Shown here: in pieces, positions 5,866 to 51,204 of the stretch
Layout: each line of letters starts with the position of its first letter
How positions within the stretch are numbered: position 1 is the first letter of the stretch
From: Chryseobacterium antibioticum
Lineage (GTDB): Bacteria; Bacteroidota; Bacteroidia; Flavobacteriales; Weeksellaceae
Direction: 5' to 3'
Length of the DNA: 64,000 nt
NCBI RefSeq assembly: GCF_012927325.1
Contig: NZ_JABBGI010000019.1
Location: 1 to 64,000 of the forward strand
The notes under the pieces: model-generated
Seen by the model: the letters and a program-made list of their open reading frames with translations, nothing else
Database searches by the model: none
Told to the model about the DNA's origin: nothing
Made by a program: the position numbers and the translations under genes

Positions 5866-6074
5866 TTATTTTTTGATGGCTTTAATCATCTGTTTAGAAC
5901 CGTCTTTCATATTTAAAGTCACAAAATACAATCCTTGTTTCAGGTCTCCCAAATGAAGAGCAGAAGAAGGAGTATCAATAGTTTTCACCAATCTTCCGGA
6001 AACATCAGAAACTGAAACCGACTTCACAAGATCTGCTTTTGAAATGTTCAATACATCTGTGAAAGGGTTTGGAT
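5866..6074 (-). repeat. 209 bp exact repeat, copy 2 (T9SS sorting domain)
   Basis: Identical to 3281-3489, offset 2585 bp, same orientation. It encodes the last 69 residues of the sorting domain. Confidence 0.95.
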
Positions 6075-7452
6075 ATGCTTTAATATCTTCTTTTGCTTTG
6101 GAAACTTCAGATGTAGCCAATGATGCAGATTCTACTTTAAAGTTATCTACGAAGAATTCGTAGTCTTCAGGATCGTTCACAGACCCGTCCGAGGCATAAA
6201 ATGCAAAGATCGTATTCGCTCCCGTATAAGATGTCAAATTATAAGAATAGGTCGTAGAGGTATTAGATGGTCCACTCGCATTATCCCACGTCTGAAGGAC
6301 AGTCCATGTACTTCCTCCATCACCTGAAACCAAGAACTGAACCACGTCGTCAGATCCCATAGCAGAAGCAGTAGTCTCCAAAAATTCTGTAACTCCATAA
6401 TCAAATTTAACCCTGTATCCTCCTGCAGACAAATTGAAAGGTAAGGTTTTCAACCATGCTTTAGTTCCGGTAAAGTAAAGGTTTATTTTTGCCGCATTAT
6501 CACCGGAATTCAGGAAGTCTCCATCAAACCATAATTCTTCCGTATCGTCAGGTCCTGTACTGGCATCCCCACCCGAAGCTTGTTCCCAACAGTTTCCAGG
6601 GAATGTTGAAAAATCGTTTGTATAGGTTACGGAAGGTACTACAACGGCACAAAGTGTTGTAAATGATGTTCCTATCGACCATGCACTTTTATCAGAAGCA
6701 CTGCATACAGATCTCACCCATACATAATAAGTAGTAGCAGAAGATAGCGTAGACAGAGGCACCGATGTAGAAGATGCTCCTACACTTCCTGTTGCTGCAG
6801 TAGTACTGGTGGGTGCTGTATTTGTTTGAGAATAATAATATTCGTAACCTACCCCTACGGTACTCGTTGAAGCTGTCCATGCAACAGATGCTGAGCTTGA
6901 AGTGACTGCACTGGAAGATAGATTACTCGGTGCCAGACAGCTTGGTACAGCTCCTATAGTCACTGTGTAATCATGTGCTTCTCCATACCCAGATGTATTA
7001 CAAGGTTCTGGTTGACTGGAATATCGGTCCCCTACTCTCATTCTGTAAGTTCCGGGTGTCACTGTAGCAGGAATAATGATACTCCCGTTAGTAATTGAAT
7101 TATCATCAGGTCCCACACTGCTTGCCGCTGCAACCAGTTCTGGCGCTGCATCATCAAAGGTTCCATTATTATCAAAATCGATCCAGATACGCACATTCTG
7201 ATTGGAATAGTCATGGCCAATAGAAAAGGCATAATTAACTCCGGCACTCATGTTAATCGTCTGTGAGGTATAATCTCCGTACGCTCCCTGAGAGCAGCCT
7301 GTATCCAAATGACTAAATCCCGCAGATGGAATCGCAAAGCTGTCGATCATGTCCCCTCCATCGCAACCGCTAGAAAATTCGGGTATGCAATAGGTCTGAG
7401 CAAATGCACACGTGCCAATCATTAGTAAATTCGCAAGTAAAATCTTTTTCAT
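5866..7452 (-). CDS. secreted GEVED/fibronectin-III protein with T9SS sorting domain
   Basis: 528 residues. Signal peptide at 1-18 (ends TCAFAQ). Residues about 60-168 are a GEVED-type domain (WIDFDNNGTFDD, later GEAHDYTV). Residues about 172-266 form a fibronectin type III domain (APSNLSSS start, WTASTS, YYVWVRSVC). Residues about 275-445 look like a jelly-roll or MAM-like beta sandwich ending FFVDNFKVE. The T9SS type A sorting domain follows from about 455 (YPNPFTDVL). The protein should be exported by the type IX system. No catalytic motif is seen; a binding or adhesion role is likely but unproven. The last 209 bp are identical to those of the neighbouring gene at 3281-3489, which points to recent gene conversion or duplication. 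Confidence 0.9.
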   Translation of the reverse strand: MKKILLANLLMIGTCAFAQTYCIPEFSSGCDGGDMIDSFAIPSAGFSHLDTGCSQGAYGDYTSQTINMSAGVNYAFSIGHDYSNQNVRIWIDFDNNGTFDDAAPELVAAASSVGPDDNSITNGSIIIPATVTPGTYRMRVGDRYSSQPEPCNTSGYGEAHDYTVTIGAVPSCLAPSNLSSSAVTSSSASVAWTASTSTVGVGYEYYYSQTNTAPTSTTAATGSVGASSTSVPLSTLSSATTYYVWVRSVCSASDKSAWSIGTSFTTLCAVVVPSVTYTNDFSTFPGNCWEQASGGDASTGPDDTEELWFDGDFLNSGDNAAKINLYFTGTKAWLKTLPFNLSAGGYRVKFDYGVTEFLETTASAMGSDDVVQFLVSGDGGSTWTVLQTWDNASGPSNTSTTYSYNLTSYTGANTIFAFYASDGSVNDPEDYEFFVDNFKVESASLATSEVSKAKEDIKAYPNPFTDVLNISKADLVKSVSVSDVSGRLVKTIDTPSSALHLGDLKQGLYFVTLNMKDGSKQMIKAIKK

Positions 7453-7726: not shown

Positions 7727-10700
7727 TTATTTCTTAATGCCCTTGATAATTTGTTTTGATCCGTCTTTCATGTTAAGAGTGACAAGATACATTCCTTGTT
7801 TAAGGTCTCCTAGTTGAAGAGCTGAAGAAGGATTATCGATAGTTTTCACTATTCTTCCTACAAGATCAACAATTGATACTGATTTTACTTTAGAGATATC
7901 AGAAATATTCAAGACATCTGTAAATGGATTTGGATACGCTTTAAGATTATTCTCTTTTTTAACATCAGATGTACCCATTGTAGAGCAATCCTGTGTCACA
8001 GAAATAGTATATTTTCCAAATCTCGTGGCAGCATAACCAGTCAGTAATACATAATACGTTGTACCTGCTGTTGCATTGAATGTTAAAGTAGATGAATCAT
8101 TAAGATTAACACCAGGACATCCGCCATCAGCATATCCAACTCCTGACGTATTACTTACACATGTAAGTGCTGCACAACTTCCTGAATACACCCTTAAGTA
8201 GCTGTCAAATTCTGCTCCACAAGCACTTACTGTAATAGCCCCTGCTACATTAGCTTTTACAGTATACCACACTCCTTTATAACTTGCCGTAGTAGTTGTA
8301 CCACCACAAGTACTGCTAGGTAAAGTTTCATTGGCAGCAAGCGCATTGTTACCTTCTACTGTTCCTCCGCAAGGAATTGCTATTGCAGTATCACAGGTAT
8401 CATTAGCAGGAGCCACTGGTGATGTAACACAGATGCTGAAAGTTGAAGCTGTAGCAGCTGTACTTGATGAAGAATATACTCTTACATAATAAACCTGACC
8501 TACGGTCAAGCTCTGCAACAGTACATTTGAGTTACCAAAACCTCCATCTGTACACGCAACTGTTGTAAAACTTCCGCAAGATCCTGAATAAACCTGTGTT
8601 GCTGTAGCATTATCAGTATAATTTACTGTTACCAAATGAGTAGTCGCAGTAGCCGTAAATGAATACCAAACATCATCATTGATACCAGAAGCAGCACATG
8701 TTGGTGTTGTTCCAGTACTTTGAGTCGCACTATAAGTAGAACCGCTTACTGGATTCATACAAGTTCCTGTACTACCTACAGTTAATGAAACAGCATTAGC
8801 ACAGTCGTCATTAGCTGGAGGAGGAGGCAGAGTACCGATACATATACTAAATGTATTGGCATAAACCGTTGTAGAAGTATTTGCGCTGGAGTTATAAACT
8901 CTTACGTAATAAGTCTCTCCAGCTGTAAGACCTGTCAGTGTAGTATAATTTGTATTAGATGTGATGCATGTTTTGTTTACCAAAGCTCCACATCCTCCTG
9001 TGAATACCTGAGCATACAAGCTCGTAGATGAGCTGCTTCCTACAGATACCACATTTTTTAACCAGATTGTATGCGCAGTACCTGTTGCAGTAAATGCATA
9101 CCAAACATCATCATCAGGAGTGCCTGTACAGGTACCTACAGGAATTGAAGAATTGGTTGCTCCCAAAGTAGTTCCAGAAGCTACAGATCCACAGCTCATA
9201 TCTGGGTTCACAGTCAAGGTAACAGCACCTGCACAATCATCATTTGCAGGAGGCGCAGGAAGCGTTCCGATGCAAAGATCAAATGAATTTGCATATAGTG
9301 AAGCTCCTGAATTAGCATTTGAATTATAAACTCTTACATAATAAGTATCCCCTGCTGTCAGATTAGACAAAACAGTATAACTTGTATTTGAAGTGATACA
9401 TGTAGTGCTGGTCAATGTACCGCAAGCACCACTAAATACCTGAGCATATAGTGAAGTAGATGAAGATGTTCCAACAGAAACTACATTTTTCAGCCAAATC
9501 GTATGTTTGGCACCTGTAGCAACAAATTTATACCATACATCATCATCCGGAGTACCAGAACAAGCACCTACTGGTACATTGGAGTTAGTTCCTCCTGAAG
9601 TGTTTCCTGAAGTTACAGAACCACAGTTCATATCAGCGTTCACCGTTACCGTTACAGCATTTACACATTCGTCATTCGCAGGTGGTGGTGGTGGCGTAGA
9701 TATACAGATAGTAAAGCTTGCATTGGTATTTGCATTAGGTGAATAAGTATAAACTCTTACATAATAGGTCTGACCCACGGTAAGTCCTGTCACTATATTT
9801 AAATCCGCATCAGAACACAATAAGTTGGTCATACTACCACAGCTTCCTCCAAGAACCTGAAAGTACATGTCAGTGTCTGAACTGACACCAGTAGAAACTA
9901 CATTGGAAATGGTAATCAGATGACTGCTTCCTGTAGCTGTAAATCTATACCAAACATCATCTCCCGGGTTACCACTACAAGGTGTAGCTGCCATAGAAAA
10001 AGTAGCCCCAAGGGTATTCCCTGGTGTTGTAGCAGTACAAGTCAATCCTGAATTAACCGTTAATGAAACCGCTGCCGAACAATCGTCATTAGCCGGAGGT
10101 AATGTTGCTCCGGTAGTAAAGTTCCTTTCAGTACATCCCGTAGAAGTAGCACTTCCGGTATAAGCTGTTATCGTATAAAAATATTGAGTAGAAGGATTAA
10201 GCTGCTGTGCAGTGGTTAAAGTGTAAGTTAAAACATTTCCTAAGTCAAAATTACTCAAGACATTATTAGCGCCTGCAGATGTTCCGATACTCAAACGGTA
10301 TCCCAGCACTCCTGTTACAGCAGACCATGTAAATGTAGGTTTTACCGAAGTTCCCAGTACAGATGCTGCAGGAATACTCACGGAAGGACATCCCAACGAA
10401 ACAGTAGTAAAGCTCCTTTCTGTACATCCGGTACTTGTTCCTGTTGAGTTTAAAGCATTCACCGTGTAATAGTACTGAGTACTGAAGCTAAGAGCACTCG
10501 TAAATGTATAGCTGGTTACATTTCCCAAATCTACCATATTCATTACATCTGTACCTCCTGGTGTAGTTCCTACGCTCAACTTGTAAGAAGATGCAGAGTT
10601 GGACCCGGCCCAGGTAATAGTAGGTAAAACAGACACATTGGTAGCATTCACTGCGGGAGCTGAAACAACCGGACAAAGCGGCGCCGCCGGAGAAAGACCC

Positions 10701-47967: not shown

Positions 47968-48879
47968 ATGGAAAAAATTTTGTCAGTAAAGAATTTAACC
48001 AAAAAATTCAAAAGAACTGTAGTCAACAATATCTCCTTTGATGTAGAAAAAGGAAATGTATATGGTCTGTTGGGGCCTAACGGAAGCGGGAAATCTACCA
48101 CATTTGGGATGCTTCTGTCTACCATCAATCCTACCAGTGGTGACTGGTACTGGTTTGGAAAGAAAGGAACGGAGCCTGATACCCTGAAAAGAATAGGAGC
48201 CATTATTGAGCAACCTAATTTTTATCCTTATCTGGATGCCGAAACCAATCTTAAGATTGTAGCGGAGATCAAAGAAACTCCTTATACCAGAATTGCTGAA
48301 GTTCTGAAAACCGTAGGTCTTTTTGAAAGAAAAAATGATGCTTTCAAAACGTATTCATTGGGAATGAAGCAGCGTTTGGCCATCGCTTCAGCTATGCTGA
48401 ATAATCCTGAGGTGATGATCCTCGATGAACCGACTAACGGGCTAGATCCCGAAGGAATTATCCAGATCAGGGAGATCATCAGTAATATCGCAAAGCAAGG
48501 CATTACCATTATCATAGCCAGCCATCTTCTGGATGAGATCGAAAAGATCTGCAGTCACGTGATTGTCCTGAAAGAAGGAAATGCCATCTATAGCGGAAGA
48601 GTGGATGAAATGACGGCCAACAACGGATATTTTGAATTAAAAGCAGACAATAATAACCAGCTTTTAAGCGCTTTGGAAGAACTTCAATGGTTCAGCGCAG
48701 TAAAAATAGATGGAGAAATCATCAAAGCTCAGATCCGCGAAGATGCTTCTATATCTGCTTCGGCTTTAAATCAGAAACTGGCTGAAAAGGGAATTTTTCT
48801 GTCCCATTTAATGAAGAAAAAACTGTCTCTTGAAACTCAATTCCTTGAACTTGTAAAAAACACGAATACCCATGCTTAA
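47968..48879 (+). CDS. ABC transporter ATP-binding protein (BcrA/lantibiotic type)
   Basis: 303 residues. Walker A GPNGSGKS (36-43), ABC signature YSLGMKQR (129-136), Walker B VMILDEP (149-155), followed by TNGLDPEG. After about 215 comes a C-terminal extension typical of drug and bacteriocin exporters of the BcrA/CcmA group. It energises the membrane protein encoded next; the two genes overlap by 8 bp. Such systems export antibiotics or peptides or serve in envelope maintenance; the substrate is unknown. Confidence 0.93.
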   Translation: MEKILSVKNLTKKFKRTVVNNISFDVEKGNVYGLLGPNGSGKSTTFGMLLSTINPTSGDWYWFGKKGTEPDTLKRIGAIIEQPNFYPYLDAETNLKIVAEIKETPYTRIAEVLKTVGLFERKNDAFKTYSLGMKQRLAIASAMLNNPEVMILDEPTNGLDPEGIIQIREIISNIAKQGITIIIASHLLDEIEKICSHVIVLKEGNAIYSGRVDEMTANNGYFELKADNNNQLLSALEELQWFSAVKIDGEIIKAQIREDASISASALNQKLAEKGIFLSHLMKKKLSLETQFLELVKNTNTHA

Positions 48880-49717
48880 ATTATTAAAACTTGAATATTA
48901 TAAAAACCTGAACTACCGACCGTTTAAGGTTTTCACGGTCTTATATTTTGCTATTCTGATCGCTCTTCTGTTCATAGGACTGGTAGATCTGGATGTTTTT
49001 GGAGGAACCATCAATTTAAAGGAACAGGGAATTTATAATTTCCCTGAAATATGGAATTTCACCACATGGATCGTCGCGCTATTGAAAATTTTCCTGGGGC
49101 TGATCATTGTATTTTCAATCTCCCAGGAGTTCACGAACAGGATGTTTAAGCAAAATACTATAGACGGACTGAGCAGAAAGGAATTTATAGGGTCAAAACT
49201 TCTAACCATTACGATCTTTACGACTGTTTCTACATTGATTGTATTTATTATCACCATGTTTTTGGGACATCAATATTCTAAGGTCACCGATTCTGCCAAA
49301 GTGTATGAGGAGGTTTACTATATTGGAAATTATTTTGTGAAACTATTTACGTTCTTTTCTTTCCTCATGTTCCTTTCGGTATTGCTGAGAAAATCAATGT
49401 TTGTATTTCTTGGTTTCTTCGCCTACTGGATCGCTGAAAAGATTTTAGCAGGTATCGAAGCCTACCAGAAATTAACAGGAATGCAGGGGGAACAAAGAAA
49501 AGCCGTTCTCGAGAATGATTTCTTCATCACCAATCTTTTACCTTTAGAGAGCATGTCTAATCTAATTCCAAATCCACTGATGCGATTGAATCTTGTGAAG
49601 GTGATGGGGGTGAAATATGAAGCTCATTATCCTACAGAAAGTATGATCGCATGTATCATCTGGTCTGTGGTCTTTATTTGGGGTTCTTACTGGATCCTGA
49701 GAAAAAGGGATTGGTAG
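48872..49717 (+). CDS. ABC transporter permease (ABC-2 type)
   Basis: 281 residues with six membrane helices. The first, second and later helices surround FSISQEFTNRMFKQNTIDGLSRKEF, the ABC-2 segment that contacts the ATPase. The start overlaps the ATPase gene by 8 bp, so the products are translationally coupled partners. A hairpin terminator follows at 49754-49774. Confidence 0.9.
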   Translation: MLKLLKLEYYKNLNYRPFKVFTVLYFAILIALLFIGLVDLDVFGGTINLKEQGIYNFPEIWNFTTWIVALLKIFLGLIIVFSISQEFTNRMFKQNTIDGLSRKEFIGSKLLTITIFTTVSTLIVFIITMFLGHQYSKVTDSAKVYEEVYYIGNYFVKLFTFFSFLMFLSVLLRKSMFVFLGFFAYWIAEKILAGIEAYQKLTGMQGEQRKAVLENDFFITNLLPLESMSNLIPNPLMRLNLVKVMGVKYEAHYPTESMIACIIWSVVFIWGSYWILRKRDW

Positions 49718-49753
49718 ACATCTGAGATTTAAAAATTGAAAAATTAAATAATG

Positions 49754-49787
49754 AAGTGGTCCCTTGGATCACTTTATTTGTTTTTTA
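49754..49787 (+). terminator. intrinsic terminator of the ABC operon
   Basis: AAGTGGTCC (49754-49762) and GGATCACTT (49766-49774; one G-T pair) around CTT, then a T-rich tract. Its presence argues against translation starting at 49751. Confidence 0.65.
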
Positions 49788-49852: not shown

Positions 49853-50572
49853 ATGACAGGAGTGAAAAAAATATACTATTTACCGGGGCTGATCAGTGCT
49901 GTATTAATTCCAGTGTTGTTCTGGTATTATGGCAACCAGAGGGTACAACCCCAATATACAGTTCTGGATTTTGCACTTCCTTCAAAAGAAGCCTACAATC
50001 CGAAGAATACCTTTGAACCGTATAGAAACTGGAAGTATAAAAAAATCATTGTAAAGCCTAATACATTCACCCAAAATCAAGGATATTATATTTCTGAATT
50101 AAAGAAACTTCAAACAAGAAATGAAAGAGAAACCGGAATTGAGTTTGTTATCGACGATCATAACAGTTATCTGGATTTTATAGCACTCATTAATACTATG
50201 CAGCTGGCCCAACAGGAAACTTATGCAATTGATGTAGAGAAAACAGGTCATTTTTTTGCTGTCCATTTTTATAAAGATCCTAATAAAAACTATGCTACTT
50301 GCGGAGGAACAGTGGGACCAGATCCTTACTATAAAGAAAGAGAAACCAAGAATTTTTCTGATCCAGAAAATGTGATAAAAAATCTACCTAAACAGGCATT
50401 TTATATCCTATTCGGATTTTTATTTTTGGTGAATATGTCTATGTCAGCATTAAAGAAAATCTTCAGATCCAAAGAAAAACATTTGTATGAAAAAGATGTA
50501 TTACTTTCCGGGACTGATCAGCGCTGTTATTATTCCGCTACTGTTCTGGTATTATGGCAACCGGAAGTTTGA
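49853..50572 (+). CDS. unknown two-helix membrane protein, tandem paralogue A
   Basis: 239 residues from the ATG at 49853; the upstream ATG at 49751 lies within the ABC terminator and its 34 extra residues have no match in the paralogue. Structure: an N-terminal membrane helix (LISAVLIPVLFWYYG), an outer domain of about 150 residues starting FEPYRNWKYKKI, and a C-terminal membrane helix (AFYILFGFLFLVNMS). The outer part has a strand-helix-strand unit (GIEFVIDD, then LINTMQLAQQETYAID) that recalls ExbD/TolR periplasmic domains, a weak impression only. The last 86 bp overlap the start of paralogue B in another frame, so the tail is unlike B's. Function unknown. Confidence 0.7.
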   Translation: MTGVKKIYYLPGLISAVLIPVLFWYYGNQRVQPQYTVLDFALPSKEAYNPKNTFEPYRNWKYKKIIVKPNTFTQNQGYYISELKKLQTRNERETGIEFVIDDHNSYLDFIALINTMQLAQQETYAIDVEKTGHFFAVHFYKDPNKNYATCGGTVGPDPYYKERETKNFSDPENVIKNLPKQAFYILFGFLFLVNMSMSALKKIFRSKEKHLYEKDVLLSGTDQRCYYSATVLVLWQPEV

Positions 50573-51122
50573 GGAAATCAATGTTTCTGTTATGGATATC
50601 TGGCTTCCAGCAAAAGCAAAAACTGGAGAGAAGCCATCCTTTTTAAGTTTTGAGCCGTATAGAAACTGGAAGTATAAAAAAATAAGAGTGGCTCCCAATA
50701 AAGCAAGGGAAAATACAAAGCTCTATGTTGCTGAAATTAAAAATTTGCAGAAAAGAAATGAGAAAAATTCAGGTATTGAATTTATTTTAGATAAGAACAA
50801 TACCTATGGAGATTTTGCGTCTTTATTGAATGATATGGCAATTGCCAAGCAGGATACTTATGAATATGATTTAGAAAAGACAGGACATTTATTTGCAACC
50901 GTTAATTACATCGATCCAAATGTCAAACAATTTGAATATGATTGTCTACTTTGCTATGATGTTATTTCTTTAAATGAAGTTTATAGAGTAAATTTATTTG
51001 ATAAAATTCAGCTGTTTTTAACCAATCTTCCCAAAGAAGGATATTATATCATATTCGGATTTTTATTTCTACTGAATATCTCAATGCTCGGTATTAAAGA
51101 AAGATTTCAAATTCATTACTAA
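50487..51122 (+). CDS. unknown two-helix membrane protein, tandem paralogue B
   Basis: 211 residues. Same layout as its neighbour: N-terminal helix (LISAVIIPLLFWYYGN), FEPYRNWKYKKI at the start of the outer domain, EKTGHLFATV, and a C-terminal helix (GYYIIFGFLFLLNIS) with a short tail ending RFQIHY. The two proteins are clear paralogues and the DNA is also similar around the N-terminal helix. B starts in frame +1 relative to A, inside A's last 28 codons; an ATG three codons later is also possible. A small Cys pair (DCLLCYD) is present in the outer domain. I know no function. Confidence 0.75.
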   Translation: MKKMYYFPGLISAVIIPLLFWYYGNRKFEEINVSVMDIWLPAKAKTGEKPSFLSFEPYRNWKYKKIRVAPNKARENTKLYVAEIKNLQKRNEKNSGIEFILDKNNTYGDFASLLNDMAIAKQDTYEYDLEKTGHLFATVNYIDPNVKQFEYDCLLCYDVISLNEVYRVNLFDKIQLFLTNLPKEGYYIIFGFLFLLNISMLGIKERFQIHY

Positions 51123-51171: not shown

Positions 51172-51204
51172 AAACCTTATAGGTTTTAGAAACCTATAAG
51201 GTTA
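51172..51204. repeat. 14 bp hairpin element AACCTTATAGGTTT
   Basis: AACCTTATAGGTTT (51173-51186) and its complement (51190-51203) around TAG. It follows paralogue B and may end that transcript. The same kind of AAACCTATAAGGTT hairpin is scattered between genes in this group, from memory. The next bases (51215-51250) hold another short repeat-like stretch with no ORF. Confidence 0.6.

Follow-up and report, generated by a model that had tools for sequence, protein, structure and literature searches.

A probable ExbD-descended tandem gene pair in Chryseobacterium whose 86-nt overlap is best explained by a one-base deletion

We analyzed a 64,000-nucleotide stretch of Chryseobacterium antibioticum DNA (the window; positions 1 to 64,000 of contig NZ_JABBGI010000019.1), and in particular two overlapping genes, A and B, that encode paralogous, putative inner-membrane proteins with two predicted membrane helices. 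Taken as a whole, the picture that we consider likely is of an old tandem pair descended from ExbD, ancestrally coupled through a shared ATGA, in which a single base of A has been deleted in the window, and for which we propose a role as a periplasmic partner without a motor. The overlap itself is ordinary: the genes of such a pair normally share an ATGA, and here one base has been deleted. It is the family that is of interest. (Of the points discussed below, the family and the ancestral form of its junction, the deletion, the old age of the duplication and the missing aspartate are shown computationally.) The features that we refer to, all on the plus strand, are as follows.

47968 to 49717, plus strand: upstream ABC transporter (ATPase 47968 to 48879, permease 48872 to 49717), a neighbor that we do not count as a partner.
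49750 to 49778, plus strand: hairpin resembling an intrinsic terminator, separating the ABC permease gene from A, with a similar hairpin sequence in close relatives.
49862 to 50572, plus strand: gene A, starting at a GTG (or possibly at the ATG at 49853) and encoding an ExbD-like two-helix protein of 236 aa in the assembly.
49952 to 50287, plus strand: ExbD-like extracytoplasmic domain of A.
50444, plus strand: site of the one-base deletion in A; the window reads ATGTCAGC where most relatives read ATGTTCAGC, all of them one base longer (alignment with eight relatives).
50444 to 50569, plus strand: frameshifted tail of A, 42 codons versus the usual 15 or so, with the last 28 codons inside the 5' end of B; the tail peptide of the extended A would read ...SGTDQRCYYSATVLVLWQPEV.
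50487 to 50572, plus strand: out-of-frame overlap of A and B, 86 nt, the two genes being read in different frames.
50487 to 50490, plus strand: ATGA, in which the start codon of B overlaps the ancestral TGA stop of A; intact in the DNA, outside the present frame of A.
50487 to 51122, plus strand: gene B, a paralogue of A, 211 aa.
50505 to 50576, plus strand: predicted membrane helix 1 of B, residues 7-30.
50577 to 50924, plus strand: ExbD-like extracytoplasmic domain of B, beta-alpha-beta-alpha-beta-beta in the model (pLDDT 91.3 for the domain alone).
50586 to 50615, plus strand: VMDIWLPAK motif of B, counterpart of VMDLGLPAK in Bacteroidota ExbD, beside the strand termed NIBS in ExbD.
51033 to 51113, plus strand: predicted membrane helix 2 of B, residues 183-209, with no ExbD counterpart.

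An earlier description of this DNA, made from the letters alone (the sequence-only reading), had presented A and B as tandem paralogues with two membrane helices that have an N-helix, FEPYRNWKYKKI and a C-helix in common. This description holds; these blocks are common to the two genes at the DNA level, where the repeats are 79-83% identical, the proteins are 46% identical, and the two helices stand as predictions. Both open reading frames and their coordinates were also confirmed, with the stop codon of A at 50570-50572 and the ATG of B at 50487, and we refined the start of A to 49862. This GTG is most likely the true start because relatives start there (most with ATG, L048 also with GTG); the ATG at 49853 is possible. 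A longer in-frame ORF that begins at 49751 was rejected as the true extent of A, since it traverses the terminator hairpin and is noncoding in relatives, in most of which stops interrupt it. No other copy of the family was found in the genome of this species, the copy number being two. When compared to orthologues, the part of A upstream of the deletion has a dN/dS of 0.13-0.18, which indicates purifying selection similar to that on intact relatives, and B has a dN/dS of 0.10-0.19.

The out-of-frame overlap, in which A reaches 28 codons into B, is present at the coordinates first reported for it, and it almost certainly arises from a one-base indel in the tail of A. The base that is absent at about 50444 is one T, at the site of a two-T run, and the DNA of the junction in the window otherwise matches that of relatives almost exactly (L041, for instance, has AAAGAAAATCTTCAGATCCAAAGAAAAACATTTGC-ATGA). 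It had been proposed that a tandem duplication consumed the stop codon of A. We find instead that the ancestral triplet is retained in the DNA at 50488-50490, inside the ATGA of B, and that A misses it through a change of frame. As a result of the deletion, A would lose its normal last 15 residues, pass the TGA in the ATGA and, by reading into B, make a net gain of 27 residues. The deletion is positioned 3' of the second helix of A, and both the domain and the second helix would remain intact. Note that in 71 copies the shifted frame of A runs on past the start of B for a median of 28 codons before meeting a stop; the length of the overlap is thus a by-product that needs no selection, because the conserved 5' sequence of B leaves this frame open.

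The ancestral form of the junction is evident from relatives. We read 41 tandem junctions, 40 besides that of the window, and found a 4-nt ATGA stop/start overlap in 31 of the 40, with the rest spanning from a 30-nt gap to a 5-nt overlap. None of these 40 has a long overlap, so that 86 nt is unique to the window, where the 4-nt sharing that is present in most relatives is missing owing to the deletion. The family is found in 123/173 genomes of the genus, in one to three tandem copies, and arrays with broken or truncated copies occur in several relatives (L057, L059, L058, L065, L067 and L070). Because it is absent from some genomes and several of its copies are broken, the family is dispensable, and because other arrays in the genus carry broken copies, damage to the array in the window would not be unusual.

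The sequence-only reading had allowed that relatives might show A ending earlier, with the overlap being due to a sequencing indel. Much of this is borne out, since relatives do end A earlier and an indel does account for the overlap. If the missing base were a sequencing or assembly error, the real A would end at the ATGA as it does in relatives, and we regard this as unlikely though a serious contender. The analysis covered a single assembly of the species, a draft of 73 contigs, and the rest of the junction has the ancestral sequence, both of which favor an error. On the other hand, the site is a two-T run and not a long homopolymer, other genomes show disruptions of their own in the array, and a comparison of the whole window with two syntenic relatives (about 50-65 matched pairs) revealed no other gene-sized ORF with a frameshift-like end or split. 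The remaining differences among the ORFs of the window concern mostly short, noncoding-looking ORFs, together with one gene of near-equal length that has a diverged end. The comparison therefore favors a low error rate, without proving the deletion. (Elsewhere in the window, the neighboring stretches 5869-7452 and 7757-8128 on the minus strand match the same 527-aa protein of a relative, at 84% and 49% identity, respectively, and are possibly a case of a partial tandem paralogue.)

We entertained the idea that A is turning into a pseudogene and that B alone is functional, which we consider about as doubtful as an error in the assembly. The occurrence of a broken or truncated copy in the six arrays named above is in keeping with such decay. 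However, the constraint on A ahead of the deletion is that of an intact relative, and the deletion falls after the second helix.

Arrays in Chryseobacterium are mostly flanked by an ABC transporter and msrAB. Most of these arrays, and those of one other genus, have the transporter genes immediately upstream, as would be expected if A and B were accessory subunits of an ABC-2 exporter. We think this improbable. A terminator-like hairpin lies in between in the window and close relatives; the family is equally common in genomes without the permease (14/19) as in those with it (109/154), so that its presence is independent of the transporter; the transporter and the family are at distant sites in G036, G064 and G093; and in other genera, as well as in Flavobacterium, the transporter is mostly not adjacent. 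The ABC transporter was accordingly rejected as a partner, there being no co-occurrence bias and, with the hairpin, no evident shared transcription unit. The positions away from the transporter in these same three genomes point to a second chromosomal site in part of the genus. In other Weeksellaceae genera the family often adjoins alaS, sometimes with a YkuD_2 gene, and overall the neighbors vary by genus, including an ABC transporter, a YkuD_2 gene, alaS and a TonB receptor. A gene for a YkuD_2-like (L,D-transpeptidase-type) lipoprotein adjoins the family gene in L109, L110, L055, L064 and L066, with a Pfam match for L109 only. In the gap that separates B from msrAB there is a perfect inverted repeat of 14 bp (51173-51203), terminator-like on the minus strand.

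The family is one that no library names, as had been suspected. No match above the Pfam or NCBIfam cut-offs was found; searches of PHROGs, PADLOC, NCBIfam and plasmids gave no match above noise; and no ExbD-like protein with two helices from Bacteroidetes turned up in a search of the literature. Neither A nor B matches Pfam ExbD (PF02472) at E up to 1, and four of 73 members do so at E below 0.1, the best at 0.0061. Weak and scattered Pfam matches to SpoIIIAH, DUF7529, BatA and YldA were discounted as chance, as was MALT1, the only match in a search of PDB sequences (E 0.5 or worse).

Comparisons at the profile level strongly support descent of the A/B family from ExbD. When the family profile was run against the whole genome of this species at E up to 10, it matched only A, B and two ExbD genes (C1:202569-203111 and C1:219469-219990), and both of the latter matched at the LPAK and Y-x-x-F-V-x-I-L-x-x-M-A-I segments. 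A profile-profile comparison with the class of Bacteroidota ExbD that bears the LGLPAK motif gave a probability of 96.3% and an E of 1.8e-9, with a score of 65.5 versus a best score of 28.1 in 100 column shuffles. When the family and ExbD are aligned, VMDLGLPAK and YKNFVDILDEMAITKSEQYGVTD are collinear with VMDIGLPAK and YGDFxSLLNDMAIAKQxTYxxD. Moreover, a wider profile matches ORFs of ExbD length in other genomes, from helix 1 through the end of the domain. By the profile-profile score, the shuffle control and the ranking within the genome, the periplasmic domain qualifies as a probable homologue of the ExbD/TolR (PF02472) domain. The sequence-only reading had noted a weak resemblance to ExbD/TolR; the resemblance stands, and at the profile level it is stronger than that word suggests. 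When the search was reversed and a seven-row ExbD profile was run against the same genome, neither A nor B was recovered. (Outside the window, G000:C49:3893-4027 has a weak match to the ExbD profile, with an internal stop.)

The sequence-only reading had also proposed a structure prediction, and AlphaFold2 run on 73 sequences returned a helix at residues 7-30, an alpha/beta domain and a helix at residues 183-209 (pLDDT 82.6), the second helix being conserved in the family. None of the 73 rows has an acidic residue (D/E) in helix 1 (positions 5-26). In the LPAK region, D37 is kept in 70/73 rows, P41 in 73/73 and K43 in 72/73. Fold searches with the whole model and with the domain alone found a widespread beta-alpha-beta-alpha-beta-beta arrangement, for which Smr, IF3-C and SepF were the top-ranking matches; ExbD (8pek) matched collinearly with a Z of 5.2 over 88 residues (rmsd 3.7, 17% identity), scores that Smr, IF3-C and SepF equal or exceed, and a second ExbD structure (8vgd) was also among the matches below these three. 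Note that residues 153-156 of B (50943-50954) form a C-x-x-C ahead of helix 2 that is present in B-type copies, and that the Cys at its second position is kept in 60/73 rows.

These data bear on whether the likeness to ExbD could be a convergence of short hydrophobic-plus-LPAK patterns in proteins of unrelated origin. The lack of a Pfam call, the failure of the reverse profile search to recover A and B, and the preference of the fold search for other folds of like general arrangement would all be consistent with convergence, but the shuffled profiles score far under the true one, the two ExbD genes are the only extra matches in the whole genome, several separate conserved blocks keep their order, and the wider profile finds ORFs of ExbD length elsewhere that match from helix 1 to the end of the domain. 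We therefore regard convergence as quite improbable and descent from ExbD as the better account.

In a tree of 87 proteins, the A protein of the window falls within a clade of mostly first copies (34 rows, SH-aLRT 100) and the B protein falls elsewhere; identity to the nearest relative is 80% for A and 78% for B. Given these separate positions and nearest relatives, the duplication took place before the species arose, and the overlap came later. Coupling of expression through ATGA is the ancestral state and not, as had been suggested, a result of the duplication. Overlaps of 4 or 1 nt occur much more often than those of any other length, subunits of heteromeric complexes are enriched among pairs with short overlaps, and in six gene pairs of E. 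coli and Haloferax coupling falls steeply with the distance between stop and start (PMC10666635); Shine-Dalgarno motifs are hardly used by Bacteroidetes (PMC6728339). Because published reinitiation depends strongly on this distance, coupling has probably been weakened in the window. That the tandem duplication removed the stop of A and that the long overlap is a selected device for coupling or overprinting is very improbable, for although the overlap exists and the body of A is under purifying selection, the TGA is retained in the DNA, long overlaps are absent from every other array read, it is the conserved 5' sequence of B that keeps the stretch open, the duplication long predates the overlap, and coupling declines steeply with stop-start distance in the six tested pairs (PMC10666635).

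Distant members of the family occur in 22/150 Flavobacterium genomes and in a few other Bacteroidota. Eighteen of the 22 Flavobacterium members that were fetched lie directly downstream of a gene with a TonB-dependent receptor C-terminus, 11 of them with a 4-nt overlap, and both of the upstream receptor-type genes that were scanned (n=2) have a Plug domain. One Flavobacterium genome has three tandem copies linked by ATGA. At loci L201-L219, L134-L136 and L220-L223, members follow genes of TonB-dependent-receptor type with ATGA or near-zero spacing, and the next gene downstream is short and conserved, is lipoprotein-like and has no match in Pfam.

The periplasmic domain of ExbD binds TonB and peptidoglycan, its residues 44-49 form an intermolecular strand that TonB displaces, and Asp25 is its proton carrier (PMC10771500). 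By collinear alignment, the 44-49 strand would be placed just before the counterpart of the LPAK motif in the family. The predicted topology would put both ends of A and of B in the cytoplasm and the ExbD-like domain in the periplasm, anchored by one helix before it and one after it. Lacking the membrane Asp, A and B would be unable to serve as a proton-driven rotor of the ExbD type. Tentatively, the family may instead provide an ExbD-like periplasmic partner, devoid of a motor, for the Ton system or for peptidoglycan. Such a partner could dimerize (A with B, or with ExbD), could engage TonB, ExbD or peptidoglycan, and could adjust outer-membrane transport or anchoring of the envelope. More speculatively still, ExbD homologues of Bacteroidota that lack the motor and are anchored at both ends might serve TonB/ExbD as decoys or as dedicated partners in the periplasm, co-translated with a receptor (Flavobacterium) or a sister protein (Chryseobacterium), that give individual outer-membrane transporters a control of their own on the shared Ton motor. 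An ExbD-derived domain that has no proton-carrying Asp, that is held by a second helix and that in Flavobacterium is often translated together with a gene of TonB-dependent-receptor type would uncouple what ExbD does as a binding protein from what it does as a motor, a separation that is testable in genetically tractable Flavobacteriia.

Several known systems help to place the pair. The junctions of most relatives are exactly the arrangement of termination-reinitiation pairs that share an ATGA (PMC6728339, PMC10666635), whereas in the window the stop of A lies 86 nt beyond the start of B and the canonical geometry is gone. With the VMDLGLPAK class of Bacteroidota ExbD, the A/B family shares an LPAK motif that follows helix 1, the Y-x-x-F-V-x-I-L-x-x-M-A-I block, and a periplasmic domain that aligns collinearly. 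In contrast to this class, the family has no membrane Asp and no cytoplasmic N-terminal segment (the helix of B begins at residue 7, whereas about 20-25 residues precede it in ExbD homologues), its linker is variable and often contains Cys, and a C-terminal helix has been added to what in ExbD is a single-helix protein; no exbB-like neighbor was found in the neighborhoods that were read. With TolR and other members of PF02472 the family shares the broad architecture of helix 1 and a small periplasmic alpha/beta domain, but it falls under the Pfam cut-off and the motor residues are missing. Finally, another family that has been recombined with parts of the ExbD/TolR type retains the transpore helix with its Asp and alters the periplasmic part; the A/B family, by contrast, has retained the periplasmic part and lost the Asp.
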